Origin: Okeania sp. SIO2B3
GTDB lineage: Bacteria > Cyanobacteriota > Cyanobacteriia > Cyanobacteriales > Microcoleaceae
Assembly: GCF_010672525.1 (NCBI RefSeq)
Contig: NZ_JAAHGH010000001.1
Location: 259,097-323,096 of the forward strand
DNA length: 64,000 bases
Reading direction: 5' to 3'
Shown here: positions 1,153 to 34,116 of the stretch, in pieces
How positions within the stretch are numbered: the stretch's first letter is position 1
How the letters are laid out: every line of letters starts with the position of its first letter
Made by a program: the position numbers and the translations under genes
Notes under the pieces: model-generated
Seen by the model: the letters and a program-made list of their open reading frames with translations, nothing else
What the model was told of the DNA's origin: nothing
Databases searched by the model: none

Positions 1153-2958
1153 TCATTCAAAATCAATTTTCCTGTTTTGTATTGAGTCAAAAACTGACTC
1201 AACTTCATTGTTAAACTCTTCATAATTAATTATTAAATAAGTTTCAGCAATCAGTCGAGACAATAACTCTTTTTGGGGGTTTGATGCTTTAGATATTTCC
1301 TTTTTCATTTTGGCGATTTGTGATTCTAATTCCTCATGGGTAGGTTCCTCAGTATCTCCTTCTTTAAAACCTTTCTTGTCTTTTTTGCAAGCAGCATAAG
1401 CACCAAGCGAAGGGTCTATTGATGATGGAATCTTAGCCGTAACAGAAGTGGCTGGGAATCCTAAGAAGTCACCAATTTCTGTTAGTTGAAACCCGTTTTT
1501 TGCTGAGTTTCTGTAAGCTCCTAGCAATAACTTGGCCATCGCTATTAACAATGGCAATAAATCATTATTCGAGTCGTTAGACTCTTGTATTTTGCTATTG
1601 CTTTCTATTAGCGACTTAATAGCTAAAGTTCCAGTAGGATAATATTTTTCTATTTCTCCATCGTCATCTAAGTCAAGAGCAATTTCTCCAATCCCTACTT
1701 TTTCTAGATGCTTTTGGGTGGCAACCCATAAGTCTTTATAATTAAAATAAGGTGCTGTTTGAGCTTTGGGGTCTTCTCCAGGAAGCAATAAATGTTTAGG
1801 AAAAGTAATCCCGTTACTTAAGTTCAAACTATCTAATGCTTGCATATTTAAGTACAGCATTAAGCGATCGTATTCAGTAAAGCAACACTCTTGATTCATG
1901 GCTTCGTCCTTGTTATTATATTTACTATCTTCTGAATTGAATTGATTCTGGTGATTTTCACTGTTATAGGTGGGATACCAGGATTTATCGGCTCTAATGA
2001 CAATTATCGATTCTGGACTGCAAATGTTTGTTCGTAGATTAGTGGTAAAAAGATCAGCGTAATAATATGATACGTTCAACCTTTGTAACAACAAATTTAG
2101 TTGCCAACGGTACAAAATCTCTATTGATTGATCTAGAGCATAGCCACTAGCTACAGGGGTGTAATCAGCAGTTAAATCGGGCGACCTAGGATTTCTCCAA
2201 TCTGTAAATTCAGGATGCCACCCTTGAACACTCAAAAAAGATTTAATCCGCATATTTAATGATTTTATCTCAGAAGTATGCTCATTGGAAAATTGGCCTG
2301 GTTGCCCAGTTCTAGGAACTCTTGCTCCAGCAGAATTATCATAATCTTGATAAAAAATCATTCCAGTTCCGTCAAGCCAAACAGTTCTTTTTGTCCGAGT
2401 GATGTCCCTTAATGTTTTATTCTGGAAAGATTTAGAGTGAAAGTCATCACCCCTAAAACCTATAGAATTAAAAGAAACTAACAATAAATCATTGGGATTT
2501 CCTTCTGATTGTGGGGGACTATCGGGTGGCGGTTCTTGTAGTGGTTCATCAAGATTAGCAAAGCCTTCAAAAGAGTTTGGATCAAAGTATGATTCAGCTT
2601 GTTCTGTATCTCCGTCTTGTAATGTCTCCTCTTTGCACGCTGGAATTATTTCAACTTCTGTATGAGTGTAAACTCCATTTATATAATATTGCTTAATATA
2701 GGTACATTCGGTTTTTTCTACTTCTATCGTGTACAATCCGTTTAAGTATTCAAGCTTGCCTCCCCCTTTGGCATCAAATTCAATCCCCATGATTCCGATA
2801 CCTATCCCCACAGTCCCGCCATTTTCAGTGGATGCAACAATGCCTATTCCTGCTATTTCTAGATTAATTCCAAAGCCATTTTCAGAAGATTCTAGCTCTG
2901 AGCTAAGATTATTTTTTGAGCTAAGATTATTTTTAAGGCTTTTGCTGAGTTTATTCAC
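1153..2958 (-). CDS. Large module A protein, glycine-rich N-terminus, unknown
   Basis: 601 aa from ATG 2958. Residues 1-25 contain a short repeat (LKNNLSSKNNLSSELESS) mirrored by a repeated DNA word near 2900-2940. Residues 28-70 are Gly/Ile rich (GIGIVASTENGGTVGIGIGI), then a beta-rich part, an acidic/proline linker around 120-155, and a mostly helical C-terminal half. A motif ECCFTEYDRLMLYLNMQAL near residue 350 resembles ECCKATLSLLRQIY in the 740-aa protein of module B (30416-32638), so the two may be distant counterparts. It is divergent from the plus-strand gene at 2976, with only 17 bp between. Likely a structural or host-contact protein of the element; no family recognised. Confidence 0.6.
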   Translation of the reverse strand: MNKLSKSLKNNLSSKNNLSSELESSENGFGINLEIAGIGIVASTENGGTVGIGIGIMGIEFDAKGGGKLEYLNGLYTIEVEKTECTYIKQYYINGVYTHTEVEIIPACKEETLQDGDTEQAESYFDPNSFEGFANLDEPLQEPPPDSPPQSEGNPNDLLLVSFNSIGFRGDDFHSKSFQNKTLRDITRTKRTVWLDGTGMIFYQDYDNSAGARVPRTGQPGQFSNEHTSEIKSLNMRIKSFLSVQGWHPEFTDWRNPRSPDLTADYTPVASGYALDQSIEILYRWQLNLLLQRLNVSYYYADLFTTNLRTNICSPESIIVIRADKSWYPTYNSENHQNQFNSEDSKYNNKDEAMNQECCFTEYDRLMLYLNMQALDSLNLSNGITFPKHLLLPGEDPKAQTAPYFNYKDLWVATQKHLEKVGIGEIALDLDDDGEIEKYYPTGTLAIKSLIESNSKIQESNDSNNDLLPLLIAMAKLLLGAYRNSAKNGFQLTEIGDFLGFPATSVTAKIPSSIDPSLGAYAACKKDKKGFKEGDTEEPTHEELESQIAKMKKEISKASNPQKELLSRLIAETYLIINYEEFNNEVESVFDSIQNRKIDFE

Positions 2959-2975
2959 TTTATATTTATATTAGG

Positions 2976-3545
2976 ATGTTAGATAGAATTTCCGAACCAA
3001 TTAGCAGTTTTTTTAGTGCAAGGATTGATTCATCCACTGATATCACAATTATTGATTTTTCCGCAGAAACTAATTACTATAAAAGCATTATTTCGGGTAG
3101 TGATTATAATTTTAATTATGCCCTGGATTACCTGACCGCATCTTATTTATTGCCTTCTTTAATTGAAAAACCTTATAGAGAATACAAGGGAATAACTCAA
3201 GCGCAACGAACAGCAGAAGATGTGGAGTTCTCAAGAGAATACAACGAATTAACTTTTGATGAAAGAATTGAAAAATATTATGCAATAAGATTAGTGTTAA
3301 CAATTATTGATAATTCATTAAATATTCCTTTTGGAGAAATATTGTTGTATAATTCTTTGACAAGATTAAACCAGCCTTTGCTTCAGTATTTAGGCACACC
3401 AATAGTAGGTGATTCATGTACGTTGAAAGCTAAAGCTATAAATATCAAGCCTTTAGAATCAGACTCGCTCATAATTTCAGGTAGTTATAGAGGAAGTGTG
3501 AATTATACATTTGATAACGGGAATCACTCTTTAGTTTTTCCTTAA
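2976..3545 (+). CDS. Module A hypothetical protein, possible structural component
   Basis: 189 aa from ATG 2976 (MLDRISEPISSFFSARIDSS). Mixed alpha/beta, no signal peptide, no membrane segment. The C-terminus (LIISGSYRGSVNYTFDNGN) weakly resembles the end of the 180-aa module B protein at 29792 (IELSGFKINNDLTVKFENE); both also share a YLG-x-G stretch about 40-50 residues from the end. The four last bases overlap the convergent gene ending at 3542. Function unknown; its place between structural-type genes suggests a virion or tail-like part. Confidence 0.55.
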   Translation: MLDRISEPISSFFSARIDSSTDITIIDFSAETNYYKSIISGSDYNFNYALDYLTASYLLPSLIEKPYREYKGITQAQRTAEDVEFSREYNELTFDERIEKYYAIRLVLTIIDNSLNIPFGEILLYNSLTRLNQPLLQYLGTPIVGDSCTLKAKAINIKPLESDSLIISGSYRGSVNYTFDNGNHSLVFP

Positions 3546-4111
3546 TGTTCCTTCAATATTGGTTGCAGCAAAGATATACCTTCCTTGGTTAATCTTCCAA
3601 ATTTATTATTGTGAAAAAAAGGATTCTTTTTGAGGATAGGTTCGACATTAATTATTCGAGAAAATTTGGCGCAAAAAGTTGAGTAATTTTTGATTATTTT
3701 TTCTTTTTTTATTTTCATTTCAAACCAATACATGGATAATGGCAAAAGCCAAATATTATCAGATAAATTGTATAAAGTTTTCACTGCCTTGGCCCAAGCG
3801 TCATATAATTCTTTTGATTTATCCTCGTTGAGAATAAATTTTCTCCAGTTAGATTTAGAATAAAAAGACCTATCTTCTTTTTGACAGGGAATGAAAATAT
3901 TACTTTTTGATGCCTCAATAGCTTTTTCAGCTTTTTTTACTCCAACCAAATAAAATCCTGGAGAAAGGTATATTCGGTCATAATCTTGAGTTATCAAACT
4001 TTCTGTCATTTCTTTTAGTTCAATATCCCATGCTGGCAATCCAGGAATGCCTTTGTTGGCATCTGATGGTAAGTAAGTAGCGTGCGAGTCTCCTACAATT
4101 GCTATTTTCAT
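3542..4111 (-). CDS. SGNH-hydrolase-like protein
   Basis: 189 aa from ATG 4111. The N-terminus MKIAIVGDSHATYLPSD carries the GDSH block I seen in SGNH/GDSL esterases and in related domains that handle glycan O-acyl groups. A convincing C-terminal DxxH catalytic pair is not obvious, so the enzyme may be degenerate or act only as a binding fold. It lies 11 bp downstream of the 234-aa gene on the same strand, so the two are probably co-transcribed. In a phage-like setting such a protein could modify or bind surface glycans; this is inference. Confidence 0.45.
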   Translation of the reverse strand: MKIAIVGDSHATYLPSDANKGIPGLPAWDIELKEMTESLITQDYDRIYLSPGFYLVGVKKAEKAIEASKSNIFIPCQKEDRSFYSKSNWRKFILNEDKSKELYDAWAKAVKTLYNLSDNIWLLPLSMYWFEMKIKKEKIIKNYSTFCAKFSRIINVEPILKKNPFFHNNKFGRLTKEGISLLQPILKEH

Positions 4112-4122
4112 TTTAATTTTAA

Positions 4123-4827
4123 TTAATAACCTAATATGACGATCTTATTATTGATTGGATTAAAATCAATTACTGCACTTTTCCATTCTCCAGTTTCTAT
4201 TTTGACTGAGAAGAAGTACACCCATGATAATAGATTAGGGTTAAGAGTCATTTCATTAGGAGTGGTAGATAATTGAATAGCCAAACCTCCCTTTTTGACC
4301 CAACCAATTATGTTGTCAGGGAAGTAACCTAAATAATCGTCACTCCAACCGCCAAGCATTAACAATCCTAGCTTTGCCACTTTAATCGGATTAAGCCGAT
4401 GAACTTGGACATGAGGTGTGGCGGTAGTATCTATAGTAGTGAAAGCAGGGTCTACTTCTACAAGGAATGTGTACCCCTCAGTGTTTGAGATGCTTAAATC
4501 AAAGCTTTCAAAAGTTAAAATCTTATAGCCATCAATCCCTAGATCGGAATCGAGGCGATCGCGCAACCATGATTCACCGCTCCAGTCGTTATGAAAATTT
4601 TGCGGAAACTCAAAATTAGTTCCTGTTGGCATTTCTAGTCTGACTTTCAAAGGGACCGGCACTTCTTCGTCACCTCCTCCAATGCTTTGTGTACTTGGTG
4701 TTTTGAGCAATTCATAGATTAACTGTAAATAATTCCCAACATTAGCAATATTATTCTCAATATTAGAAAGTTTATCAGGAATGGTCTTGTCATCCCATTT
4801 TTTTATATTTAGGGGTGCTTCTCCCAT
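4123..4827 (-). CDS. Module A homologue of the 256-aa module B protein
   Basis: 234 aa from ATG 4827. Residues 15-45 form a short coiled coil (NIENNIANVGNYLQLIYELL), followed by a Gly/Asp linker (GGGDEEVPVPLKVRL) and a beta-rich domain. The layout and key strings match the protein at 28847-29617: GGGD linker, PLK, and YTFLVEVDPAFTTID against YTFKVDIDTTFLDMD. The shared plan of short N-terminal trimerisation-type helix plus beta body is typical of fibre or baseplate-associated proteins, but no named family is recognised. The start of the next plus-strand gene lies about 50 bp upstream, giving a divergent pair as in module B. Confidence 0.6.
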   Translation of the reverse strand: MGEAPLNIKKWDDKTIPDKLSNIENNIANVGNYLQLIYELLKTPSTQSIGGGDEEVPVPLKVRLEMPTGTNFEFPQNFHNDWSGESWLRDRLDSDLGIDGYKILTFESFDLSISNTEGYTFLVEVDPAFTTIDTTATPHVQVHRLNPIKVAKLGLLMLGGWSDDYLGYFPDNIIGWVKKGGLAIQLSTTPNEMTLNPNLLSWVYFFSVKIETGEWKSAVIDFNPINNKIVILGY

Positions 4828-4877
4828 GTTTATTCTTCATCTATAATATATTTACTTTAACGCAAACGCAAAATATT

Positions 4878-5408
4878 ATGTTATTTAACTCTACTGATGA
4901 ATTTAGTCCTTACACAACTTTGGAGGAAAGAACTTTCGCTTTGTTGCTCAAAGTAGATGAGACGGAGGGCAAATCTTCAACTAATCCTAATGGATTGGAC
5001 TATCTAACGGGCTTTTCTGTTAGTTACGAAAATCCAAAAACAGCAACCGGGACTATTGTCATCCCTGCAATTTTTATAGAGACTTCTGATGTTGATAGAG
5101 GCGAGATTAGAATAATTGACGCTTATAATTACGCTTATTCAGAAGTTGGTGGAGGCGACCAATTATGCACGAACATTAGTAGCGCTATTTATCAAGCTAT
5201 CTCAGCACAATATCGAGCTGAAAGGATATTAGATTTTAATTCAGCTCAAGTAGAGAATATTACCAGAGAAATTCAAGAGATAGATGTAGGAGACTTGGGC
5301 GCTAACTGCTTAATCAGCTTTGAGTTCAACTTGCCTGTCATAGTTGCTGGGAGTACAACAAAAGGTGCTGCTTATTTGCAGGGGAGTTACAGCGATTTAT
5401 TTGCTTGA
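4878..5408 (+). CDS. Module A hypothetical beta-rich protein
   Basis: 176 aa from the ATG at 4878 (MLFNSTDEFSPYTTLEERT). A longer frame back to 4815 uses a non-ATG start and runs into the promoter region of the divergent gene, so it is rejected. The C-terminus (LISFEFNLPVIVAG, then LQGSYSDLF) has beta character like the ends of the 189-aa and 180-aa proteins. It occupies the same divergent position relative to the 234-aa gene as 29792-30334 does to the 256-aa gene. A rho-independent terminator follows directly. Function unknown, probably structural. Confidence 0.55.
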   Translation: MLFNSTDEFSPYTTLEERTFALLLKVDETEGKSSTNPNGLDYLTGFSVSYENPKTATGTIVIPAIFIETSDVDRGEIRIIDAYNYAYSEVGGGDQLCTNISSAIYQAISAQYRAERILDFNSAQVENITREIQEIDVGDLGANCLISFEFNLPVIVAGSTTKGAAYLQGSYSDLFA

Positions 5409-5414
5409 CCGTCG

Positions 5415-5436
5415 AGCGTTCTTGACGCTTTTTTTC
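5415..5436 (+). terminator. Rho-independent terminator after the 176-aa gene
   Basis: AGCGT, loop TCTTG, ACGCT, then a run of seven T bases, beginning seven bases after the stop codon at 5408. Confidence 0.7.
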
Positions 5437-5601
5437 TAAATAATCTCTAAATAATTATCGATTTATTGATAAGTGAATTACTGCTGCGCTCTTTAGAACG
5501 ATTTGTTTACTTTTGATTCAATGCTCGTGCACTACTTTAATTTGTGTGATAAGATGTAAAGCAAACCTAATCACGAATTAAACTAACCGAGGAGCAGAAG
5601 T

Positions 5602-6261
5602 ATGGCTATACAGTTTGAGTCTCCGCGTCTTGAGGCTGCGGTAGAAAAAGTGTATTCACGGCTGGGGGACTTAGAATTGGGCAAATTAGAGGTCAGAATC
5701 CCAGCTCTTGAGTCAGGGGATGTTTCTATGCCAAAATTGGTAGTAGGAGAAGGCGAAATGAAATATGTTCTTTTTGACAATGAGACTGAAATTCAGTACC
5801 CTCCAGAATTGCAGCCACAATTCACTCCAGATGAAAGCACTTTTTACTGGCATCAAATCAAGCATCCGGAAAGGTTTTTTCACATTTATGGAGAGTTTGT
5901 ATCTTTAGGCACACCTCAAATAGCTCCTGCTATACTCAGCACTTATAACGCTGACAATGGCACGTCTTTCGGAGAACGGCCTATCGATAAAATCATAACT
6001 CCTATACGAAACTCATCTGGGCAGGATGTTCCTTTGGTTTTTTCTTGCGAGAGTGATTGGGTAAACTCCAGCAATGGAAATGTCGTAACCCATGTAGAAC
6101 CGTTGTTCGCTGTTTGGCGTAAGAATAGCAAAGAGATAGAGCTGAAGTTTGATAAAGCAACTTATTCCGTACCTTTTGGCACAGGTTTGGTATGGAATAT
6201 TAAAATGTCTTTTTGGGCTGCAGCTACTCTAGATTTGCCAGATATGGAAGAAGCAGATTAA
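5602..6261 (+). CDS. Module A homologue of the 236-aa module B protein
   Basis: 219 aa from ATG 5602, with a good ribosome site (GAGGAG) 10 bases upstream. N-terminal helix, then a beta-rich body. It aligns through most of its length with the protein at 33406-34116: GEGEMKYVLFD against GSTEMKFFYG, PPELQPQFTP against PDELQPLVEP, LSTYNADNGTSFG against LDDYNSNNGTSYT, and LVWNIKMSF against LTWNVKIKF. It lies just before the C39-like peptidase gene, whereas in module B the order is reversed. Likely a virion or secreted-particle component; no family recognised. Confidence 0.65.
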   Translation: MAIQFESPRLEAAVEKVYSRLGDLELGKLEVRIPALESGDVSMPKLVVGEGEMKYVLFDNETEIQYPPELQPQFTPDESTFYWHQIKHPERFFHIYGEFVSLGTPQIAPAILSTYNADNGTSFGERPIDKIITPIRNSSGQDVPLVFSCESDWVNSSNGNVVTHVEPLFAVWRKNSKEIELKFDKATYSVPFGTGLVWNIKMSFWAAATLDLPDMEEAD

Positions 6262-6368
6262 ACCTAGGACTACTAGACATAGATTGAGGGACTCTAGACA
6301 CGAGAGAAAGATGAGAATATAGAGCGGTAGTAGACTGTCTATCTATAAAACCACAAACGATGTTCAAT

Positions 6369-6397
6369 GCCTGACAATAGTGAGCATAGAGTCAGGC
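6369..6397 (+). terminator. Hairpin in the 219-aa to peptidase gap
   Basis: GCCTGAC at 6369-6375 pairs with GTCAGGC at 6391-6397. Only a weak T-run follows (CTTTAC), so it may be an attenuator or mRNA-protecting stem rather than a full terminator. Confidence 0.4.
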
Positions 6398-6418
6398 TTT
6401 ACACGATAACTCAACAAA

Positions 6419-6916
6419 ATGCGATTATTAGTTCCTTATTATTCTCAGCGTGACAATACAGTAGATTGGTGGCGAACTTGTAATGCTTCATCCATGGCAA
6501 TGTGCGCGCAATACCTCAAGCCTGGATGTATTTCTGGTGATGACGATTACCTCGATCGTCTAGCTGATTATGGCGACACTACAAACCACTCTGCTCATAC
6601 TGAATTACTGGCTTCATTAGGGATAAACAGTTCTTGGAGAACCGACTTAAGCTATGCAAGCTTGGATGCTCAATTGGAAAGAGGAAAACCTATCCCGATA
6701 GGCGTGTTACACAAAGGGACGTTAAATTATCCTAGTGGAGGCCACGTTTGTGTAGTGGTAGGTAAGGAATCAGGGGGTTATCTCTGTCATGATCCTTGGG
6801 GGAGAGGTTTTAGTTATGACGATGTTAATGGTAGAGATTGCTATTATCCTTACCAAAGTTTGAATGCTAGATGGCTAGTAGAGGGGCAAAATACTGGATG
6901 GGGAAGGATGTTTTAG
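6419..6916 (+). CDS. C39-like cysteine peptidase domain protein (module A)
   Basis: 165 aa from ATG 6419. It has the pattern of the peptidase C39_2 type: Gln-Arg-Asp before the nucleophile region (PYYSQRDN), a Cys in TCNASSMAM (near residue 26), a His in GGHVCVVVGKE (about residue 112), and an Asp in CHDPWGRG. No signal peptide, so export or release would need lysis or a holin. The homologue at 32819-33364 keeps all these motifs (SCNVTALAM, GHIVTVVGYDE, VHDPYGEW). In phage-like elements such domains occur as cell-wall peptidases or virion-associated lysins; the exact substrate is not evident. Confidence 0.7.
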   Translation: MRLLVPYYSQRDNTVDWWRTCNASSMAMCAQYLKPGCISGDDDYLDRLADYGDTTNHSAHTELLASLGINSSWRTDLSYASLDAQLERGKPIPIGVLHKGTLNYPSGGHVCVVVGKESGGYLCHDPWGRGFSYDDVNGRDCYYPYQSLNARWLVEGQNTGWGRMF

Positions 6917-6981
6917 TAACGTCCTCTATGCCCATCAAAACTTAACCAGGAAGATAATCTCCCTAACTTTGACATTGACTA

Positions 6982-7055
6982 AAGTGCTGACGGGGGTTGA
7001 ACCCGCAAATTCCTGCATGAAAGACAGGTGGCTTTACCAATTTGCCTACAGTACC
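6982..7055 (-). tRNA. tRNA-like gene, anticodon UUC (Glu)
   Basis: Read on the minus strand: acceptor GGTACTG pairs with CAGCACT (one mismatch), D-stem GGC/GCC, anticodon stem CCTGT/GCAGG with loop CTTTCAT (anticodon TTC), T-stem GCGGG/CCCGT with loop TTCAACC. The loop is close to the normal tRNA-Glu CTTTCAC loop. No CCA is encoded. The mismatch and GU pairs suggest a diverged, element-borne tRNA. Confidence 0.6.
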
Positions 7056-7083
7056 ATCTTTTAATTTTAGCAGGAAATTAACT

Positions 7084-7156
7084 GCGCTCTTGGCCGATTG
7101 GGGAGGCAACAAACTCATAATTTGTTTTTAGGTCGGTTCGATTCCGGCAGGGCGTT
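7084..7156 (+). tRNA. tRNA-like gene, anticodon CAU (Met or Ile2)
   Basis: Acceptor GCGCTCT pairs fully (with GU pairs) with AGGGCGT. D-stem GCC/GGC surrounds GATTGGGGA. Anticodon stem ACAAA/TTTGT holds loop CTCATAA (anticodon CAT). T-stem GTCGG/CCGGC holds loop TTCGATT. Elongator Met versus lysidine-modified Ile cannot be settled from the sequence by eye. It faces away from the tRNA-Glu-like gene 28 bp upstream. Confidence 0.65.
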
Positions 7157-7233
7157 TTGTCAAAGTTGCGATCGCAATTAGGGTATTATACTACACAATC
7201 AAACTGGACAGAAAATAAACTGATTCGAAAAAA

Positions 7234-7689
7234 ATGTACGATATCTTGACCGGGTTTGACTGGGGCAGAACTAATGTCACTTATGGTTTCAATCCCAATC
7301 TATCCTCTGAGCTTCAACATTCATTTAACGAAATAGCCTCTGAAATAACGTTAAATTCTCGTTTAACTTTAACCAGAAGCGCTTCCCCTGATATTTTGAT
7401 TGGGTTTGGCGATACTGAAGGTTTTCTGGGTTTGGCTTATTTTCCTGGAGATTTTCCAATAAGTGGAGATATTTTGTTGTCACCAGATTTGAGTCGGCAA
7501 CCTGAATTATATCAAGAGTTCGTGGCATGGCATGAGTTCGGTCATGCCCTAAACCCAGAGCATGAAGAAGATCGACAAGACTCAGTGATGGCTATTAACT
7601 TAGAAGGACTAGGGGTTGAGGACCTGCCTACTTCTTTTACCAATTATGATTGGTGGGCTTTGGACACCACCTATTACCACGTTTTATGA
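7234..7689 (+). CDS. Metzincin-type zinc metalloprotease (matrixin-like)
   Basis: 151 aa from ATG 7234. The zinc site HEFGHALNPEH fits HExxHxxGxxH except that the Gly is replaced by Asn, and a Met-turn (DSVMAIN) follows 12 residues later, as in metzincins. Upstream the domain has the expected beta sheet (DILIGFGD, LGLAYFPGD, DILLSPDL). No signal peptide or propeptide is visible, and the protein is short: just the catalytic core. It is the last gene of module A, directly before the tandem repeat region. Possible roles are virion maturation or degradation of host sheath protein; both are inference. Confidence 0.7.
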   Translation: MYDILTGFDWGRTNVTYGFNPNLSSELQHSFNEIASEITLNSRLTLTRSASPDILIGFGDTEGFLGLAYFPGDFPISGDILLSPDLSRQPELYQEFVAWHEFGHALNPEHEEDRQDSVMAINLEGLGVEDLPTSFTNYDWWALDTTYYHVL

Positions 7690-7699
7690 TTCATGACTA

Positions 7700-8179
7700 G
7701 TTAGGGAGATTATCTCCCTAACTTTGAGTGCTAAGAGTGCTAATTAAATTAATGGCAATTATTGTTCTTTCATCCCTAAACTCTTGGTTCTCGAAAATTT
7801 TTCAGTAATCCGGTCGCCAATCTTCCCAAGCGGTTAAGCCTTTAGTACATCAGGATATGTCTAGTTTTTGAAAACTGAAGAGAGGGTTAGGGAGTAGGGA
7901 TTAGTTTGTTGGGGAGGCAATCCCCTAACTTTGAGTGCTAAGAGTGCTAATTAAATTAATGGCAATTATTGTTCTTTCATTCCTAAACTCTTGGCTCTCG
8001 AAAATTTTTCAGTAATCCAATTGCCAATCTTCCCAAGCGGTTAAGCCTCTACTACATTAAGATATGTCTAGTTTTTGAAAACTAAAGGGAAGGTTGGGGA
8101 GTAGGGATTAGTTTGTTAGGGAGATAATCTCCCTAACTTTGAGTGCTAAGAGTGCTAATTAAATTAATGGCAATTATTA
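7700..8179. repeat. 207/208-bp tandem repeat with hairpins
   Basis: Two full units (7700-7907 and 7908-8114) and a partial third (8115-8179). Each unit starts with a palindrome such as GTTAGGGAGATTATCTCCC + TAAC and continues with TTTGAGTGCTAAGAGTGCTA. Units 1 and 2 differ by few substitutions; some are compensatory in the hairpin (GTTGGGGA/TCCCCTAAC at 7908). No open frame of note lies inside. A fourth, diverged copy is at 8794-8882, on the far side of the 125-aa gene. Confidence 0.8.
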
Positions 8180-8298
8180 GAGTTGCTGGGAAATAAAAGC
8201 TGAAAATTCATCAGAACGTCCTTCTTAATCTTAAATATATTTGAACAATATTCTTAGGATAAAGTATCAATGCAATCTTCATTAATATTACATCTAAT

Positions 8299-8676: not shown

Positions 8677-8793
8677 AGATAAGCTCCCCCATTTTGCGGT
8701 CGGGGAAAGGATATTATGCTACTTGCGAGTTTATAATAGACTTGTCGCTTTATAACTTTAAAAAGTTTCAAAACTATTGATGAATAAAAGGTT

Positions 8794-8882
8794 CTAGTTT
8801 TTGAAAACCCAATAGAGGGTTAGGGAGACAGTCCCCCTGACTTTTGAGTACTAAGAGCACTAATTAAATTAACAGCAGCTAT
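8794..8882. repeat. Diverged fourth copy of the 207-bp repeat unit
   Basis: It keeps CTAGTTTTTGAAAAC, the stem GTTAGGGAGACAGTCCCCC, and the tail TGAGTACTAAGAGCACTA. The stem is imperfect. The remaining bases of the 8677-9016 gap show nothing further that I can identify. Confidence 0.65.
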
Positions 8883-26476: not shown

Positions 26477-27156
26477 TACGGCCCTGAGATATCTATTTTT
26501 GTGAGATTGTCTGTATAGTCTCCAGGTGGACGAGCAATACTAGATTTTTCCACCCAATAAAGGAGAGGGATCTCGGTCGGGTCTGCGAATTTACTCAGCC
26601 AAGTCCCAAAAGCGGCTATAGAAACAGCGTCCGGTACCCTCATTCCTATTTTCTTGATATATCCAGTCTTCTTCACTCCTTTCACCGTTTGATCGACAGG
26701 GGACTTGACTCTTACAATGAAGCGTTTCCCTACTATTTGCTTATTTTTGATGCGAGTCTCATCCATGTTTTTCGTATTAGCCTTGTTTGACGTGTTAGTC
26801 GGTGTCGAACCTTCGTCCCCTTCTTCTGTCGCCTTATTTATTCGAGGGACGTACACTTTCGCTGTATCAGCTACAGCAACTCTTGTGTTAGCAGCCGTTA
26901 GGTCCGCGTCTGTCTGGATCTTTAAGGCGTGGGCAAGGTTGTGAGGTACTGATACAGGGATATAGTATCCTGTCCCTGTAGTAGATATAAGAATTTTGCT
27001 TGTGATAGGGAGAGATTTATCCAGCCTCCCTTCGTTAATTTCCTCAAGCTCTGCTTTCGTATTCCCAGTCCCGGCGTTTCCATCAGCGTTCAGCCCCTTC
27101 GGATCGACAGCAGGACTATTCTGCTTCTCCTTCTGGGTTGGTCTTTCTGTTGCCAT
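26476..27156 (-). CDS. Module B hypothetical protein with disordered N-terminus
   Basis: 226 aa from ATG 27156. Residues 1-45 are polar and disordered (TQKEKQNSPAVDPKGLNADG). The rest is beta-rich, with a second disordered insert near 105-130 (EEGDEGSTPTNTSNKANTKN). Coupled to the 106-aa gene. Likely a structural protein of the element; no family recognised. Confidence 0.55.
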   Translation of the reverse strand: MATERPTQKEKQNSPAVDPKGLNADGNAGTGNTKAELEEINEGRLDKSLPITSKILISTTGTGYYIPVSVPHNLAHALKIQTDADLTAANTRVAVADTAKVYVPRINKATEEGDEGSTPTNTSNKANTKNMDETRIKNKQIVGKRFIVRVKSPVDQTVKGVKKTGYIKKIGMRVPDAVSIAAFGTWLSKFADPTEIPLLYWVEKSSIARPPGDYTDNLTKIDISGP

Positions 27157-27261
27157 TTATCCTCTTAAAAATATATTCACTATAAATATATATCTTCTAA
27201 ACCAGCTCAGGCGACGATTAGAGCAAATAAACCAGTGCTCTAATATTAGAGCATTGCCATT

Positions 27262-28809
27262 CTAATCGATAGAGCTTTTGAACGCTTCATTTAGGAGGAA
27301 GTCGAAGTTAACGGGCTTCGACTTTTCTCCAAAATTAAATCTCCTAGTTATGTTTTGCTTAGACTCCGCTATTAAGCCCTGATTTTGATATTTTGTCGCT
27401 CTTTCATAATTTCTGACATAAAAATGGCTAAGATACATAGGCTGATGTTTCCGTGGCTTCCATCTGGGAGTGATCTCGCCGTCTAGCTCGCTATAGTATG
27501 GAGTCCCTACTGCTTCGACTTCAGTTATCTTTAATAGCACTTCAGATAGCCTAAATGCTTCTTTTTTTGAATTCCCTCTGCAAACTATTTTTCTTCCGTT
27601 CTTCAAATCTCGGCTGACAGTAACATTGCCATCAGTAAAGGCGCTAGGCCTAAAAGATGTTTCTAAAAGCTCCCAGGTGAATTTGGAGCGATCGACATTA
27701 GGTATCTTAGGGCAATGCCTTGCAAGCGTCTTCCTATTCTCCTTTCCCCAAGGGGTATCTAGAGTGGAGTAGAATACAAGCTCTATCTCAATACCATTAC
27801 TACTGATAACAGGCTGGTCGTCATTCGTTACCGATACATTTCCTATGTCTCTATTGTCAAGGAGTACTTGATTGGCGTTAATTGATATAACCTGGTTCCT
27901 TAGTTCGTCAGGAGTTCCATGGAGATAGACCCTTTCGCTTTGATTACGGTTAGGTTCATAAATGACTGTTTGAGGACTTGCTTGATTAATTGATTGTAAC
28001 TGCAATTGATCCCATAGATAAGTCATATTAAAAGCGGTATCCCAGAAAGCGTCAGTGAATTCCTCTTTGAATTCCTCAATATTGTTTTGGAGTTGATCGT
28101 CTTTTATCGCTTCTATCTTTTGATTCAAAGCTTCAGAGAAAGACCATTCTGAAGCTTCCTTCTCCCCCCATTGATCTATTATCTTAGGGTCGATGCCAAC
28201 ATTTTTTGATATTTCCCTCAACACAGGATCTTTGTACGCTTTTCTAATGAAAGCGCGAGTATTTTTGAAAGCAGCAAGAAAGCCAGCGTTCACTGAACTC
28301 TGAGCCATTAGGAGTAACAACTGCTGTGTATCACTTAATATCTCAGCGAAGTAGTCGTCAGCCGTGTTGATTAGTAGTAATTTAGCAGCGACCGGATTTA
28401 TATAGAAAGCTAAAGCGCCCCCTATCCCGATCGCAGTAATTGAACCTATTTGTTTCCCCAACACTCCGAATACTCTTGTCTGAATAGAGTTGAATAATCC
28501 TTCTATTTGCTTATCTATCTGCTCATCTGAGATTTGAAAGTTGAATTCCCATATATAGTCGAATCCTTCCTTGAACCAGTCAAGAATATTTGTTGCAGTG
28601 AATTCGATGCTAGCCAAAGCCGTCTTCAACCCTGAAGTTAGGAACCCTAATAAACTTCCTACTCCGCGAACGATAGATGCCAAAAAACCAAGTTCAGTTT
28701 GGGTTTGAATACTCGTCGATTGAATGGTTCTCAAGCCTTCGCTATTACCGGTTATAGCCTGCCTGACTTGGATGCCTGAAAATGAATCCCTTGTTAAATT
28801 AAATGCCAT
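27262..28809 (-). CDS. Module B large protein with hydrophobic helices
   Basis: 515 aa from ATG 28809. Residues 40-75 and 120-165 contain long hydrophobic helices (LASIVRGVGSLLGFLTSGLK; SITAIGIGGALAFYINPVAA), so the N-terminal half may insert into membranes or form a helical core, as in tape-measure or pore-forming virion proteins. The C-terminal half (from about 290) is beta-rich and basic. No family recognised. It lies between the 226-aa and 256-aa genes on the same strand. There is no counterpart in the visible module A. Confidence 0.55.
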   Translation of the reverse strand: MAFNLTRDSFSGIQVRQAITGNSEGLRTIQSTSIQTQTELGFLASIVRGVGSLLGFLTSGLKTALASIEFTATNILDWFKEGFDYIWEFNFQISDEQIDKQIEGLFNSIQTRVFGVLGKQIGSITAIGIGGALAFYINPVAAKLLLINTADDYFAEILSDTQQLLLLMAQSSVNAGFLAAFKNTRAFIRKAYKDPVLREISKNVGIDPKIIDQWGEKEASEWSFSEALNQKIEAIKDDQLQNNIEEFKEEFTDAFWDTAFNMTYLWDQLQLQSINQASPQTVIYEPNRNQSERVYLHGTPDELRNQVISINANQVLLDNRDIGNVSVTNDDQPVISSNGIEIELVFYSTLDTPWGKENRKTLARHCPKIPNVDRSKFTWELLETSFRPSAFTDGNVTVSRDLKNGRKIVCRGNSKKEAFRLSEVLLKITEVEAVGTPYYSELDGEITPRWKPRKHQPMYLSHFYVRNYERATKYQNQGLIAESKQNITRRFNFGEKSKPVNFDFLLNEAFKSSID

Positions 28810-28846
28810 TGTTTTTAATTATATATTCACTATTTTGTTCTAAGAA

Positions 28847-29617
28847 TTAATACCCCCCTAGTGTGAAAGTCTGCGTTCCGGTGTCGTATTGGGTGATAAT
28901 ACATCCCTGACCTCCATCATTGATAGTACTGGAGGTAAAATGAATAAAACCAGGGGTATTGTGAGGGGTTATTCTAAATTCACCGCCATTAGGTGGTAAC
29001 GAAGCTACACAAGTACTGTCTTTAATCCTGCCAATCATTGAGGCTATTTCGTCTCCTCCTACGTTCCAACTTTCAACGATAGCTAAAGGAGATAGTTCAG
29101 ACAAAATTTTGATTAAATCAAAATAAAAAACTAGGATGGGGCGAACTTCAGCCCCAATAACTTCTCCTGCCGAATTCTTAAGTTTTCTTTTAGAGGTCTT
29201 ATCCATGTCGAGAAAGGTTGTGTCAATATCAACCTTAAAAGTGTATTCTTTTCCTGGTTGATAGCAGGAAAGGCCAGCTAGTTTATGCCCTGTTACGCCT
29301 TGATCACTGTCAATACTTTGTGCGAGTATATATTCCCAATCGGAATATATACTTTGCAAGAAAGATAGTGGCAAGTCTTGCCCAAGCTTTGCCCCTGTCC
29401 CAACCCATTTCTTAATTTTTAGTGGAATTTCCATATCTCCTCCTGTATCGTCTAAACTCATATCATCTCCTCCTCCAAACAGGAGATATATATCGTCCAA
29501 TTTGTTAAACACTTGCAGTAAAGCATTTCTGATTCCTGTCATCTCAGCGATCGACTTAGTATCGTCAATCTTGAAATCACTGAAGTTCGTTATTTTTACT
29601 GGAGCATTTCCTCCCAT
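28847..29617 (-). CDS. Module B homologue of the 234-aa module A protein
   Basis: 256 aa from ATG 29617. N-terminal short coiled coil (TGIRNALLQVFNKLDDIYLL), Gly/Asp linker (GGGDDMSLDDTGGD), PLKIKKW, then a beta domain with YTFKVDIDTTFLDMD. All these occur in the same order in 4123-4827. The pair of homologues is one of the main links between the two modules. Divergent from the gene at 29792 across the shared palindrome. Probably a fibre- or baseplate-type structural protein. Confidence 0.6.
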   Translation of the reverse strand: MGGNAPVKITNFSDFKIDDTKSIAEMTGIRNALLQVFNKLDDIYLLFGGGDDMSLDDTGGDMEIPLKIKKWVGTGAKLGQDLPLSFLQSIYSDWEYILAQSIDSDQGVTGHKLAGLSCYQPGKEYTFKVDIDTTFLDMDKTSKRKLKNSAGEVIGAEVRPILVFYFDLIKILSELSPLAIVESWNVGGDEIASMIGRIKDSTCVASLPPNGGEFRITPHNTPGFIHFTSSTINDGGQGCIITQYDTGTQTFTLGGY

Positions 29618-29725
29618 ATTTTACCCCTCTCCTTCTTTTTATCCAAGAATGTCTTTCTTTATTTATGTGTTTTAGTATAAAATTTTTTTATCTTGAGTGG
29701 ATACACTCTTGCAAAATTTCATTTA

Positions 29726-29743
29726 TGCAAGTAATTACTTGTA
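29726..29743. promoter_or_regulatory. Second copy of the TGCAAGTAATTACTTG palindrome
   Basis: TGCAAGTAATTACTTGTA lies in the divergent promoter region of module B, 49 bp before the gene at 29792. It differs by one base from the perfect copy at 21999-22016. Confidence 0.6.
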
Positions 29744-29791
29744 TAAGTTATATAAGAAACAGAAGTACACGAGTATCAAAAAGAGAAAATC

Positions 29792-30334
29792 ATGGCAGGG
29801 TTATTAAATTCTAGTGGAACAACCATAACTAGATTAGAATCCTCCACGTTGAAGAGCGATCTCATTATCGTGGAGGACGAAATTATCGGTCTTTTTGATG
29901 GATTGAGCGACTACAAAGTCGGCATCATATTTGCGGTTGTAGATATAAGACTGCAAGTGAATTTAGCTAGTCTAAACTTAGCTACGGTTCCAGTCATTAG
30001 ACCAGAGGACAGCAGCGCACGTAAAGTGAAACAAACAATTACGTCAGAATTAGCCAGTGAAAGACTAGGCATAGAACTTAAAGTAAATGAAAAATCAATA
30101 TTAAGGAAGAGAATTGTTAATTACGGAAAATCAAACACAATTCCTTTGATGTCAAAAATAAGTGGGACAGCAAAATATCTAGGAAGAGGAGACATCCTTT
30201 CCGCTTCCTTGGTGGACTTAGGATATGGATTGACGCTAGGTGATGACTATATCGATATTGCCTGTGATTATTTGATAGAATTAAGCGGGTTCAAGATAAA
30301 CAACGATCTCACTGTGAAGTTTGAAAATGAATAA
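29792..30334 (+). CDS. Module B hypothetical protein
   Basis: 180 aa from ATG 29792, with a purine-rich ribosome site (AAGAGAAA). Mixed alpha/beta; the C-terminus (LIELSGFKINNDLTVKFENE) is similar to the ends of the module A proteins at 2976 and, less so, 4878. Same divergent position next to the 256-aa gene as 4878 has next to the 234-aa gene. Probably structural. Confidence 0.6.
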   Translation: MAGLLNSSGTTITRLESSTLKSDLIIVEDEIIGLFDGLSDYKVGIIFAVVDIRLQVNLASLNLATVPVIRPEDSSARKVKQTITSELASERLGIELKVNEKSILRKRIVNYGKSNTIPLMSKISGTAKYLGRGDILSASLVDLGYGLTLGDDYIDIACDYLIELSGFKINNDLTVKFENE

Positions 30335-30415
30335 TTTAGACGAGGTAAATAGCGTCAATTCTGCTTCCAGGATTAAAGACATAATAAAAAAACTTGTTAC
30401 TAACTCTTAAAAATA

Positions 30416-32638
30416 ATGGTGGAATTTGAGAACAGAGAAGAAGAAGCGGAAAAAAAAAGAAGATTTATATTTGAAGCTGCGATCGCCGTTTTCAAAAGGA
30501 AAGGAACTCCTATTTTCGCTATACTCCCGCCTAAACCAGCCTTAGACGGAATTCCTACGTATGACGATAGAGGGTTCTACAATAATGATCCTGAAGAAGA
30601 TTTTCCACAAAGTGATTTCCCAACTATAGAAGAAGTAGAGGAAGCATTAAGGGATCTTGATAGCTCTGACTTGCTCGACGATATCGTGGATGAATGGGGG
30701 GAGGAGATGCAAGATTTAATAGATGAACTTGAAGAAGAGATTGAAAATTTAGAAGAAACTGAGGACGAACTTCCAGATGCCATAGAGGAAACCGAAGAGG
30801 TCTCGTACGAAGAAGACATCCCTGATGAAGAGGACAGCGAAGAAGACACTAAGGAGAAGTGCTGGATTATATCATTAGGGGTAGGTGATAAAAAAATCAC
30901 GTTTAGCACTTGCGATAAAAAAATAGAAAAAAAAGACCCAAATAAACCACCAGATATTGATTTAGAAGAAAAAGATACAATAGATCCTCCTATACCCCCG
31001 ACTGAACCAGGCAGACTGATTTGTCCTATTAACAAAATAATTTTTCGAGTTACCAAGACTGGAAGGTATAAAGAAGAGATTGAGCCTATAGCTGAATATA
31101 TTGTAGGATGGTTTACGCCGACATTTGAGACCAAATACCTATTAGAGCCTCATGGTATTGATTACAGTATTATTTCTGGGGCGACAGAAAGCTTTACCGC
31201 CTGGAACGTAGCGTGGGATTATAGTGAAAGCGAATTCGGCCCAAAGACATCAGGAGGGGCTACTCTTTACGCATCCTCTTTTGGAGAGAGTTCAAACACA
31301 ACAAATAGTCTGTTTGAAGAGTTTAAGTTATTGTCAGGATACAGCTTCCCTGACAGTGCCACTGATTATCTTAAATTTATAAGAAAAGATGAAACTACTA
31401 GGACTCTAATCAGATATTCTTCTGCAAGAAGTGATGCTTGCTATATACTACCGTTAGGAGAAGAGCCTCCTCCTAGCCTTAGCCCACCATCAGTTGAAGA
31501 AGTTGATGATTTAATCGTAGAAGAAAAGGACGGTGACAAAATGAGTGATGAATGTTGCAAAGCTACTTTATCTTTGTTGAGGCAAATATATCATGTAACC
31601 GGAGGGGCAGAAGATTCCCTATATCCCTCGGAGGTGACAATTGATGAGTCTGACGACGTGATAGAGGTTAACAATATTAAAGAGAAAATCGATCTTCTCT
31701 CTCTTCCTGGGCAAAAGTCGAACGTCGATAATACCCTTCTTCAGGGCATAGCAAACGTGACAGGAACAAGTGCAACACCTTTATACCCATATCCATCAGG
31801 AGAAGAAGGCGAGCAAGTAAACAACCTTCTAGAAGAGATCCGTGAGAAACTTGCTGTCTTAATAGAAATTGCTAAAGTAACAGGTGCGCTGGAGGGATAC
31901 GGGAAACTTCCTGAAACGATGATAGGGAATGACCCTAAGCAGATAGACATCAGTAATACCCCTGAGATGCTTTTGTACATTTTTAAATACTTAGATAGCG
32001 TTCTAGGGCAATATCCTATCGAAACAAAGATAGAAGATGCTGACATATCAAAAGAGGGGGAGCAACCCGAAGTAATCAAGTTACCTAATATTTCTGAAGC
32101 ATTAGCTGAACTTTATGGCGTAGCATATACTAACGCTATAAATATAAAAGACAAGCGACTAGAAGTCGCTACTAACGCTGAAATTTATTTTATTAAAAAG
32201 AATCTGTTCCAAACAAAGTATATGATTAATTCAATAATTGAATGGCTAGGATTTGAACCTGACCTAACAAGGAAGAAGCTTAAATTCGCAACAAATCCAA
32301 AGAAAAGAAAGTATGATGAGTTCCTGGAGCCTAGCGAGAGAAATGTAGAGGTTTTAGAATTCAAGGAAGATAAAAAGAATAAAGATTTTCGGTATTACCT
32401 AGACAAGTTACTGAGATCCGCTACTACGATTCAGAAGGCTTTCGGTATTCCTGTAAACCCAGGAGATATCTCTGGCAGCATTTTGAGTTTCATAAAAGGT
32501 TTAGGAAACGATCCTGCCGAAGAGTGGAATCAATTCAAAGAGGAACTAGAAGACGGGAAATTCACTGACGACGACTTAGGAAGTGGAGATAACCCCAGAA
32601 TAAGCAGCCCTACATCAAAGGACGAATCGAATAGCTAG
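30416..32638 (+). CDS. Large acidic module B protein with VTG repeats
   Basis: 740 aa from ATG 30416. Residues about 60-145 are extremely acidic (EEEIENLEETEDELPDAIEE). A Cys/Pro-rich part follows, then a beta domain at about 220-340. Residues about 385-500 hold three copies of a helical repeat: LLRQIYHVTGGAEDSLYP, LLQGIANVTGTSATPLYP and VLIEIAKVTGALEGYGKLP. The C-terminus (about 560-700) is helical and basic, then acidic. ECCKATLSLLRQIY resembles a motif in the 601-aa module A protein. A fibre or long structural protein is likely. No family recognised. Confidence 0.6.
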   Translation: MVEFENREEEAEKKRRFIFEAAIAVFKRKGTPIFAILPPKPALDGIPTYDDRGFYNNDPEEDFPQSDFPTIEEVEEALRDLDSSDLLDDIVDEWGEEMQDLIDELEEEIENLEETEDELPDAIEETEEVSYEEDIPDEEDSEEDTKEKCWIISLGVGDKKITFSTCDKKIEKKDPNKPPDIDLEEKDTIDPPIPPTEPGRLICPINKIIFRVTKTGRYKEEIEPIAEYIVGWFTPTFETKYLLEPHGIDYSIISGATESFTAWNVAWDYSESEFGPKTSGGATLYASSFGESSNTTNSLFEEFKLLSGYSFPDSATDYLKFIRKDETTRTLIRYSSARSDACYILPLGEEPPPSLSPPSVEEVDDLIVEEKDGDKMSDECCKATLSLLRQIYHVTGGAEDSLYPSEVTIDESDDVIEVNNIKEKIDLLSLPGQKSNVDNTLLQGIANVTGTSATPLYPYPSGEEGEQVNNLLEEIREKLAVLIEIAKVTGALEGYGKLPETMIGNDPKQIDISNTPEMLLYIFKYLDSVLGQYPIETKIEDADISKEGEQPEVIKLPNISEALAELYGVAYTNAINIKDKRLEVATNAEIYFIKKNLFQTKYMINSIIEWLGFEPDLTRKKLKFATNPKKRKYDEFLEPSERNVEVLEFKEDKKNKDFRYYLDKLLRSATTIQKAFGIPVNPGDISGSILSFIKGLGNDPAEEWNQFKEELEDGKFTDDDLGSGDNPRISSPTSKDESNS

Positions 32639-32699
32639 GCACTTTCTGCCTGTAGTAACTCCGCGAATATTTTATGACTATCGGAGAAGCATCAACCTA

Positions 32700-32742
32700 G
32701 TTTATATAATAAAATTATTATATAAAATTATTATATAAACAA
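32700..32742. repeat. AT-rich direct and inverted repeats before the module B peptidase
   Basis: TTTATATAATAA is followed by TTATTATATAAA and again TTATTATATAAAC. Pure A/T sequence of this kind could be a promoter or unwinding site. Confidence 0.5.
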
Positions 32743-32818
32743 AATAATCAAAACCTCAGTTGATATCGACTACAATACAAAAGTATCCCAACCCTAAACC
32801 TTGTCAGGACACATAGAA

Positions 32819-33364
32819 ATGGCAGAACTTGAACTAGACGTAGAATATCTCTCTCAGAATGATAATTGGCACAACCCAAGTGGTAGCTGCAATGTTACCG
32901 CCTTAGCAATGGTATTGAATAATCTAGGCATAGAACGGTATCCTAGATACAAAGAGTACTCTCAGTTTGAAGATGAATTATACCAATATGCTTTAGACCA
33001 TAGTTACTCAAGGCATAGCCCGTATGATTTGAGGCAAATTGCGGAAAATTATGGAGCGAACGCCTCCTTCCGCTCGCAAAGCTCTATAGAAGAATTGAAA
33101 TCGTGGATGGATAAATGGAATCTACCTGTAATTATCCATGGGTACTTCACAAGCTTCGGGCACATAGTAACAGTCGTGGGATACGACGAGAACGGTCTTA
33201 TTGTGCATGATCCTTACGGTGAATGGTTTTCTACTGGATACCGTAAGGACTTGAGTGGGGCGTATTTACACTATTCGTACGAATTAATCAAGCGGACTTG
33301 CCTCCCAGATGGGTTTCTTTGGTGTCATTTTGTCCGGAATCTTAAAGATGATAAAAAGAGCTGA
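32819..33364 (+). CDS. C39-like cysteine peptidase domain protein (module B)
   Basis: 181 aa from ATG 32819; an upstream TTG at 32801 would add six residues. The catalytic pattern is the same as in the module A copy: EYLSQNDNW before the nucleophile, Cys in SCNVTALAM, His in GHIVTVVGYDE, Asp in VHDPYGEW. No signal peptide. It lies 41 bp before the 236-aa gene; the order is swapped compared with module A. Probably a wall-active or maturation peptidase. Confidence 0.7.
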   Translation: MAELELDVEYLSQNDNWHNPSGSCNVTALAMVLNNLGIERYPRYKEYSQFEDELYQYALDHSYSRHSPYDLRQIAENYGANASFRSQSSIEELKSWMDKWNLPVIIHGYFTSFGHIVTVVGYDENGLIVHDPYGEWFSTGYRKDLSGAYLHYSYELIKRTCLPDGFLWCHFVRNLKDDKKS

Positions 33365-33405
33365 AATTTGCGCTATAATGAGGAGAAATAGGACATACCA
33401 AAACA

Positions 33406-34116
33406 ATGCCGGGCAAAATTCAATTAACTAGACATGAAGAAACGATCGCGATGCTTCATAAGATCGCGATCGGTCAACAAAAACTTGTTGATGTTCTCTC
33501 GGGAGAAGGAAACACGGTACAGGTGAGTGTCAAAGAGTTGGCAACTCCCGCGGAGGAAGTAAGCCAACTCTTGGTTGGATCTACTGAAATGAAATTCTTC
33601 TACGGGCAGGACGGAAGTCCATACCCGGATGAGTTACAACCTCTAGTAGAGCCGTTAAAAAATACCTTCAATTATGAACAAGTCCGAGTAGGCAGTGACC
33701 TATTCTATATCGAAGGGGAATACGAAGCTATGAATATTGCACAGCTCCCTACGACCGTATTGGACGACTATAACTCAAATAATGGTACCTCTTACACGGC
33801 TAAAAGCAAGACAGAGGAATATCTGCGAATCCCCCTAATGAGGTTTGCCGGCTCAAGGAAACGTCTCGATAGCGACTTAGATCATTTATGGGTAAATACT
33901 CAAAATGGAGATGAAATAGACTGGCTAGAACCGCTTGACGCATTCTCTCTTCCTAGCAGTGACCTCATTAAGTTAAGGTACGACGAGGAAGATGGTCGTT
34001 ATCCAGTTTTGTTCGGAGATAATTTGACTTGGAACGTCAAGATTAAATTCTCTGGGCTTATCAAGGCATATATGCCAGAAGAAATGGTCGACCAAGACAT
34101 TGCCCAAAATATTTAA
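33406..34116 (+). CDS. Module B homologue of the 219-aa module A protein
   Basis: 236 aa from ATG 33406. N-terminal helix (ETIAMLHKIAIGQQKLVDVL) and beta body with TEMKFFYG, YPDELQPL, LDDYNSNNGTSY and LTWNVKIKF, all matched in 5602-6261. The clear homology between the two proteins, with low identity outside these blocks, indicates an old duplication or two separate captures. A 32-bp palindrome follows. Function unknown, probably a particle component. Confidence 0.65.
   Translation: MPGKIQLTRHEETIAMLHKIAIGQQKLVDVLSGEGNTVQVSVKELATPAEEVSQLLVGSTEMKFFYGQDGSPYPDELQPLVEPLKNTFNYEQVRVGSDLFYIEGEYEAMNIAQLPTTVLDDYNSNNGTSYTAKSKTEEYLRIPLMRFAGSRKRLDSDLDHLWVNTQNGDEIDWLEPLDAFSLPSSDLIKLRYDEEDGRYPVLFGDNLTWNVKIKFSGLIKAYMPEEMVDQDIAQNI

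Follow-up and report, generated by a model that had tools for sequence, protein, structure and literature searches.

Two diverged copies of a candidate late module on one integrated element in Okeania sp. SIO2B3

The integrated element and its genes

The window analysed here is a 64,000-nucleotide stretch of the Okeania sp. SIO2B3 contig NZ_JAAHGH010000001.1, and its first 35.7 kb (1..35733) form the right-hand part of a 46,710-bp insertion at tRNA-His that is flanked by a perfect 66-bp direct repeat. The left copy, attL, lies to the left of the window (G000:C1:248054-248119, equal to L004:8958-9023), the right copy, attR, repeats the 3' end of tRNA-His at 35668..35733 (forward strand), and the empty integration site was found in a sister Okeania genome (G325:C77), so that att repeats, a recombinase and an empty site, the features of an integrative element, are all present. 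The left 11 kb outside the window encode a BRO anti-repressor, a Dda-like helicase and a further part of the first of two gene sets, module 1, which reaches to about C1:254,658 (L004:15562); the left limit at 1153 in the original prediction was therefore too far to the right.

The left part of module 1 includes a c0C protein of 392 aa (L004:18002-19180), which follows a c0N protein of 338 aa with a glycine-rich hydrophobic stretch that begins inside the window (1..193, reverse strand; L004:19177 to window position 193). Three further genes on the reverse strand encode a 601-aa protein of core family c1 (1153..2958; hhalign to the c1 profile, probability 97.4, E 1e-11), a conserved module protein of 189 aa (3542..4111) that was judged by eye to be possibly SGNH/GDSL-like and has a 57% identical homologue in G325 (dN 0.32, dS saturated), and a 234-aa protein of family A1 (4123..4827; dN/dS about 0.13 against G325). 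On the forward strand lie a divergent gene for a 197-aa protein (4815..5408), conserved from about Met 22, with a 74% identical homologue in G325 and related to family c35 of other elements (hhalign probability 92.5, E 5e-7), a predicted receptor-binding knob of family A2 (219 aa, 5602..6261), its fold taken from a 236-aa homologue in module 2, and a predicted endolysin, a C39-type cysteine peptidase of 165 aa (6419..6916; Pfam Peptidase_C39_2 9.5e-11, PHROG endolysin 2.1e-51).

In module 2 the reverse strand carries, from the left, a small 97-aa protein with an N-terminal transmembrane helix (25782..26075), a holin candidate on its position and hydrophobicity with a weak match to P21 holin (0.045), and a 226-aa protein (26476..27156) that stands where the c30 core family would be expected and is, by this position only, a candidate structural protein. 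The proposal that this protein and a 228-aa protein form one coat family with c30 is unsupported, as hhalign finds no homology. These are followed by a 515-aa core protein (27262..28809) that combines c0N and c0C, is 29% identical over 479 aa to a 521-aa protein in G296 and has a match on a circular Tolypothrix plasmid (2e-33), and by a 256-aa A1 protein (28847..29617), for which AlphaFold gave no usable fold (pLDDT 32). The forward strand then carries a divergent gene of family c11 (180 aa, 29792..30334; 37% over 177 aa to the copy on contig C60), a 740-aa core protein of family c1 (30416..32638; hhalign probability 99.3, E 5e-20), a second predicted C39-type endolysin of 187 aa (32801..33364; Pfam 5.3e-20, PHROG endolysin 3e-13) and the 236-aa A2 protein (33406..34116), a predicted receptor-binding knob on an AlphaFold model and a structure search.

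The remaining genes are those of a mobile element. A site-specific recombinase of 452 aa (34237..35595, reverse strand) adjoins attR; its C-terminal motifs and position suggest a tyrosine recombinase, no Pfam or PHROG match of its own was found, and a 320-aa relative lies beside the module in L077. Sequence motifs point to a serine recombinase of DNA-invertase type at 9017..9598 (reverse strand), and one element protein matches a DNA-invertase PHROG (4e-61). A 349-aa protein (10087..11136, reverse strand) is the probable replication initiator, with homologues on the circular plasmids pMIC7113.08 and Tolypothrix unnamed14 and a 55% identical one in G325. An IS110-like DEDD recombinase of 412 aa (18742..19980, forward strand; cluster c7), which recurs across the element family, matches Pfam DEDD_Tnp_IS110 at 1.4e-5, just under the cut-off, and a transposase PHROG at 8.6e-12. 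The 492-aa AAA-type ATPase (22012..23490, forward strand) has replication-like features and a P-loop, GKSGTGKSS; Pfam and PHROG searches gave no family match for it.

An 18-bp palindrome, which we regard as a candidate operator, has four sites spread over both halves of the element and none elsewhere in the DNA examined. The sequence AAGTAATTACTT within it is found at 22002..22013, at the 5' end of the 492-aa ATPase gene, and again as AAGTAATTACTT at 29729..29740 in the divergent promoter region of module 2. Together with the 66-bp att repeat and the empty site, this shared palindrome supports the earlier view that both gene sets belong to one element. Two tandem or separate elements were considered and dropped, given the single att pair, the empty site and the lack of a third att copy within the unit; the 46.7-kb element may have arisen from two older ones that fused or of which one came to lie inside the other. 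An invertible host-contact cassette was considered and rejected, as long inverted repeats flank neither cassette.

Two diverged modules and their predicted functions

The homology of the three protein pairs named in the original prediction is borne out, with shuffle z-scores of 20-37: BLASTP gave E 3e-11 (z 19.6) for the A1 pair, 7e-26 (z 37.2) for the A2 pair and 2e-11 (z 23.0) for the C39 pair, although the second C39 reading frame starts at 32801 and not at 32819. The genes that diverge from the 234-aa and 256-aa genes had been described as placed alike, which they are, but the 197-aa and 180-aa proteins show no mutual similarity (z -1.3); a third copy, which lies on contig C60, has members of both families. 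The duplication extends beyond the named pairs, as the 601-aa and 740-aa proteins both match core family c1 (hhalign 97% and 99%), although direct comparison of the two shows no resemblance, and the 515-aa protein unites in one chain what module 1 encodes as separate proteins of 338 aa and 392 aa, the c0N part matching the former. Most of the module genes tested are under purifying selection.

The 219-aa and 236-aa A2 proteins are predicted to be receptor-binding knobs. In the AlphaFold model of the 236-aa protein, built from an alignment of three sequences and the one good model of five, residues 57-225 are mostly above pLDDT 80 and the N-terminal 52 residues have no resolved structure. Viral attachment knobs top the list of a structure search with this model, the best Z of 8.7 being near the level common for unrelated models; among them are the Dettilon tailspike, the receptor-binding proteins of Listeria phage PSA and of TP901-1, reovirus sigma1 and adenovirus knobs. 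A viral structure library returned phage tail-fibre models at E 3e-5 to 5e-4, and proteins of related elements match PHROG tail-fibre families at up to 6e-20. With the endolysin matches, these results indicate host-attachment and lysis proteins of the tailed-phage type, and integration, attachment and lysis are supported as functions of the element.

A family of elements and the search for virus hallmarks

The core profile matches 106 of the 391 genomes of the order and 27 of 386 in a sample of the phylum, and in every untruncated neighbourhood read the core families stand together in one gene block, accompanied in every case by element-type genes. Relatives include four dispersed chromosomal copies of 14-15 kb in one chromosome, a tandem dimer of 15.4-kb units that are 100% identical, and complete circular plasmids of 15.6-37 kb (CP019638, CP019637, NZ_CP064893 and NC_019743), of which CP019638 and CP019637 carry ParA/ParB-type genes. 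Single-module elements are about 14-21 kb, and several complete circular elements consist of the module for about half of their length. Complete circular copies occur in the culture-collection strains Tolypothrix sp. PCC 7601 and Allocoleopsis franciscana PCC 7113. The gene content varies: a VapE-like replication helicase lies beside the module in L077, the G355 unit carries an amidase unrelated to the C39 endolysins, and long coiled coils occur among the c5 proteins, some of which match tail-fibre or minor-head PHROGs weakly.

The core families, including the 601-, 740- and 515-aa proteins, gave nothing significant in searches of Pfam, PHROG and PDB sequences. No relatives were found among 50,697 phage genomes, nor in IMG/VR with short exact patterns (A3, A4, A9, A10 and two single proteins), the latter a weak negative, with A7 too diverse for a search pattern; open-licence papers contained no description of the family.

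The original statement that no capsid, portal or terminase is recognisable in the window holds for the whole Okeania genome, which has no match to large terminase (PF03354 or PF03237), portal (PF04860) or HK97-fold capsid (PF05065), while control genomes were positive; a very diverged capsid could escape these sequence profiles. The TerL, portal and HK97 families tested are likewise absent from six of eight carrier genomes, and the Zot-type morphogenesis ATPase of inoviruses (PF05707) gave no match in any of the eight or in the Okeania genome. Neither the 25 top PHROG families listed for the Okeania element nor those for four complete relatives include standard head or packaging genes, families of sheath, tube or baseplate proteins did not appear, and no packaging ATPase common to all members of the element family was found.

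Interpretation and comparison with known systems

Three kinds of element had been proposed, namely a phage-plasmid with two host-contact cassettes, a satellite and an extracellular device, and the phage-plasmid is the best supported, because of the knob-like predicted fold of A2, the C39 endolysin family, the circular plasmid relatives and ParA/ParB. We consider it somewhat more probable than not that this is a temperate, phage-plasmid-like element of a new family, which makes a host-gripping particle and here has two diverged late modules. The site-specific recombinase would integrate the element at tRNA-His, as the att repeats and empty site support, and the element may excise as a circle, circular relatives being in existence, and replicate from its own initiator. 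The shared palindromic operator, with its four sites, may switch both the early genes and late module 2; c1, c0N, c0C and small partners would then build the particle, with a putatively trimeric A2 knob as the tip that binds a new cyanobacterium, and the C39 endolysin and the small membrane protein would release it by lysis. The particle may carry the element DNA. Since no known fold or family could be assigned to the core proteins, it is the attachment and lysis genes that suggest such a particle. With two diverged modules the element probably has either adhesion of two different specificities or two kinds of particle that can replace each other.

The main rival, possible if rather unlikely, is a satellite family in which each element brings genes for integration, replication, adhesion and lysis, and a helper tailed phage supplies the capsid for packaging. 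It would account for the missing capsid, portal and terminase genes, for single-module elements of such small size and for the VapE-like helicase, which is common in satellites. However, these elements conserve adhesion and lysis genes along with many that look structural, of the kinds that known satellites usually borrow from the helper, 46.7 kb is large for a satellite, and six of the eight carriers have none of the four tailed-phage families tested, although a helper would not have to reside in the same genome.

A DNA-free device, tailocin-like or an extracellular adhesion or killing apparatus borne as cargo by plasmids and integrative elements, seems improbable, since in every case read the module is carried by DNA that integrates or replicates itself and can form about half of it, whereas tailocins are usually fixed loci on the chromosome. 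The presence of adhesion and lysis genes where there are no packaging genes would suit such a device, as would the coiled coils and weak PHROG matches of the c5 proteins, but the sheath, tube and baseplate families were not seen. Least probable of all is an ordinary tailed prophage whose standard head and tail genes were overlooked. Tail-fibre, endolysin, anti-repressor and integrase-type genes are indeed phage-like, yet by profile search this reading is largely refuted: the Pfam terminase, portal and capsid families are missing genome-wide, the same gap appears among the top families of the four relatives, and the left 11 kb hold none of the terminase and capsid genes that, according to the original prediction, would have made this an ordinary prophage if they lay just past the left edge.

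Going beyond the phage-plasmid-like reading, it can tentatively be proposed, at rather less than even likelihood, that these elements are an undescribed family of cyanobacterial viruses whose c1/c0N/c0C virion has no relation to known capsid and tail systems. They would occur in about a quarter of the sampled Cyanobacteriales genomes and have been missed by virus detection for want of a shared hallmark gene, Okeania having two complete, interchangeable virion modules. If this is confirmed, an ecologically important phylum harbours a common class of virus-like elements that has been overlooked, since its structural genes have no match in the reference sets searched here. An element whose two diverged particle modules share a candidate operator would also have an unusual means of widening its host range. 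The circular copies in culture-collection strains open the question of particle and capsid to direct test.

Among known systems, the A2 proteins share their predicted fold with the receptor-binding proteins of TP901-1, PSA and p2, reovirus sigma1 and adenovirus fibre knobs (Z about 5-8, 86-137 residues aligned), but at only about 10% sequence identity; such viral knobs are trimeric beta-sandwich heads that follow an N-terminal stalk. Both C39 proteins match the PHROG 10051 endolysin family, which has a C39-type peptidase domain (2e-51 and 3e-13), but are single-domain proteins that cover only the C-terminal part of its 455-position profile. Phage-plasmids are temperate phages maintained as plasmids (PMC10879196), and the circular relatives resemble them in their ParA/ParB, integrase, endolysin and tail-fibre-like genes; being an autonomous circular replicon with partition genes is a trait of these relatives, the Okeania copy being integrated. 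The family differs from phage-plasmids in that no capsid, portal or terminase is recognised and no relative occurs among the phage records searched. With the PICI, P4-like and PICMI satellites (PMC10803314) it shares small integrative elements that have no head genes, one with a VapE-like helicase, but unlike these satellites it keeps a large structural-looking, adhesion and lysis gene set of its own.

The duplicated module and the element that carries it

The window lies within the 10.0-Mb genome of the source Okeania (G000:C1:259097-323096), and the original prediction that three pairs of its proteins are homologous, forming two diverged copies of one late gene set (modules 1 and 2), was borne out by BLASTP and by z scores of 19.6, 37.2 and 23.0 against shuffled controls. 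The duplication extends beyond that description; both the 601-aa and 740-aa proteins match one core family (c1), the 515-aa protein is a single-chain fusion of what in module 1 are two proteins, of 338 and 392 aa, and contig C60 of the same genome holds a third copy of the gene set. Genes had also been described as diverging alike in both modules, which holds for their divergent placement, with no sequence similarity found between the 197-aa and 180-aa proteins.

A perfect 66-bp direct repeat of a tRNA-His 3' end is present at L004:8958-9023, in DNA spanning the left edge of the window, and at window 35668-35733, a spacing of 46,710 bp within which no third copy was found. In another Okeania (G325) the site is empty, with both flanks adjoining at identities of 95.8% and 98.4% and 77 bp separating the matched parts. 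The repeat pair and the empty site therefore show that the element reaches 11 kb left of the window, and this left 11 kb encodes a BRO anti-repressor, a Dda-like helicase and the remainder of module 1. An 18-bp palindrome around AAGTAATTACTT has four sites, two in the left half of the element (L004:13088 and L004:13777) and two in the right half (window 22002 and 29729), the last of these within the divergent promoter region of module 2; no further sites occur among the 118 loci scanned. We infer a regulator common to both halves; the element may nevertheless descend from two elements that fused or nested at an earlier time.

Inside the element, between its two halves, are tRNA-Glu and tRNA-Met genes, followed by 2.3 repeats of a 207-bp unit containing a tRNA-like fragment (together at window 6982-7156 and 7700-8178). 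At window 7234-7689, between the modules, is a gene for a matrixin-like metalloprotease (Pfam Peptidase_M10, slightly below the cut-off). Outside the element, two very long ORFs of 1837 and 1881 aa occupy the minus strand at window 40552-46065 and 47062-52707.

Spread and mobility of the relatives

Within the order, a profile built on c0C, the core protein of 392 aa, matches 106 of 391 genomes, which belong to 56 of 150 genera; a second profile matches 27 of 386 genomes sampled across the phylum, and five of these fall outside the order. In all neighbourhoods read without truncation, c0 shares a gene block with c1 or c5, usually followed by a 190-230-aa protein, an ~80-aa protein, the 150-aa c2 and a small protein that has a membrane helix at its N terminus. 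The core families have no significant match in Pfam, PHROG or PDB-sequence searches. In most close pairs tested dN is well below dS (about 0.07-0.3), a set that leaves out one small, misaligned pair (c34).

Four copies of ~14-15 kb, 92-98% identical, lie in differing places and orientations in the complete chromosome of G299, and G355 carries a tandem dimer, 100% identical, with a unit of 15,393 bp and a 4-bp core, ATTC. Complete circular plasmids with the module are pHT582-2 (15.6 kb, with ParA/ParB), pHT582-1 (37 kb), Tolypothrix sp. PCC 7601 unnamed14 (20.8 kb) and Allocoleopsis franciscana pMIC7113.08 (20.8 kb); the last two encode homologues of window 10087-11136, which is probably a replication initiator gene.

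IS110-like DEDD recombinases recur across the elements (window 18742-19980, L068:12365-13564, L014:11430-12725, L016:8709-9968 and L020:13733-15166) and not as lone IS copies; the core of the G355 unit is only 4 bp. At the end of that 15.4-kb unit (G355:C10 ~55,420-55,514, L069) an apparent single CRISPR repeat, GTTTCAATCCCTAGCAGGGAG...TTGCAAC, was seen by eye, which the element may carry as a solitary repeat. An 11.1-kb module in G247 is flanked by direct repeats of 57 bp that contain a palindrome (L077:1733-1789 and 12842-12898), and the recombinase gene lies outside.

Predicted attachment and lysis proteins

The predicted structure of the 236-aa A2 protein has a mean pLDDT of 72.8, with residues 57-225 mostly >80, in a model built from three sequences for which four of five models were poor. 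The VIA comparison was led by Noumeavirus NMV_189 (Z 8.7), the Dettilon tailspike (8.2) and the Listeria phage PSA receptor-binding protein (7.3), followed by a tail needle, the TP901-1 and p2 receptor-binding proteins, reovirus sigma1 heads and adenovirus knobs. Plain Foldseek against the PDB gave no match <0.001, and a viral library gave seven, tail-fibre-type proteins among them. Taken one by one the scores are modest; it is the number of viral attachment heads among independent rows that makes A2 appear to be one. Relatives also carry matches to PHROG tail-fibre families.

Both C39 proteins (window 6419-6916 and 32801-33364) match one PHROG endolysin family; the amidase encoded by the G355 unit (Amidase_3, 1.5e-30) is unrelated to them, and weak matches of L,D-transpeptidase-like type occur in other relatives. 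Judged from these matches, the lysis enzyme appears to be swapped for non-homologous ones among relatives, as in phages.

Packaging genes and the nature of the element

The absence of capsid, portal and terminase genes, first noted for the window, extends to the whole Okeania genome, where the families for terminase (PF03354, PF03237), portal (PF04860) and HK97 capsid (PF05065) have no match, nor does Zot (PF05707); positive controls in named genomes gave matches for the terminase, portal, HK97 capsid and Zot searches. An ordinary prophage is thereby largely excluded, and we consider it very improbable. Two other carrier genomes have one terminase each, on contigs different from those bearing the module. 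A tblastn search of 50,697 phage records found no relative, nor did scans of IMG/VR, a weak negative since they work from short patterns. The Tolypothrix plasmid (L101:13323-14513) and the G355 unit (L068:14728-15870) both encode a P-loop ATPase, 41% identical between them, with a hydrophobic stretch at its N terminus; it is a candidate packaging ATPase, not common to all members.

A DNA-free device is unlikely, because the module is always found travelling on element DNA. We favour, by a modest degree, a temperate element of phage-plasmid-like type that produces its own particle, a reading that agrees with integration, the circular forms, the genes for attachment and lysis and a conserved core that looks structural; that there is a particle, what DNA it holds and what the core proteins do are what we infer. 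The main rival, a plausible minority reading, is a satellite packaged in the capsid of a helper. Should the core prove to be a new capsid system, this phage-plasmid-like element would be categorically new.
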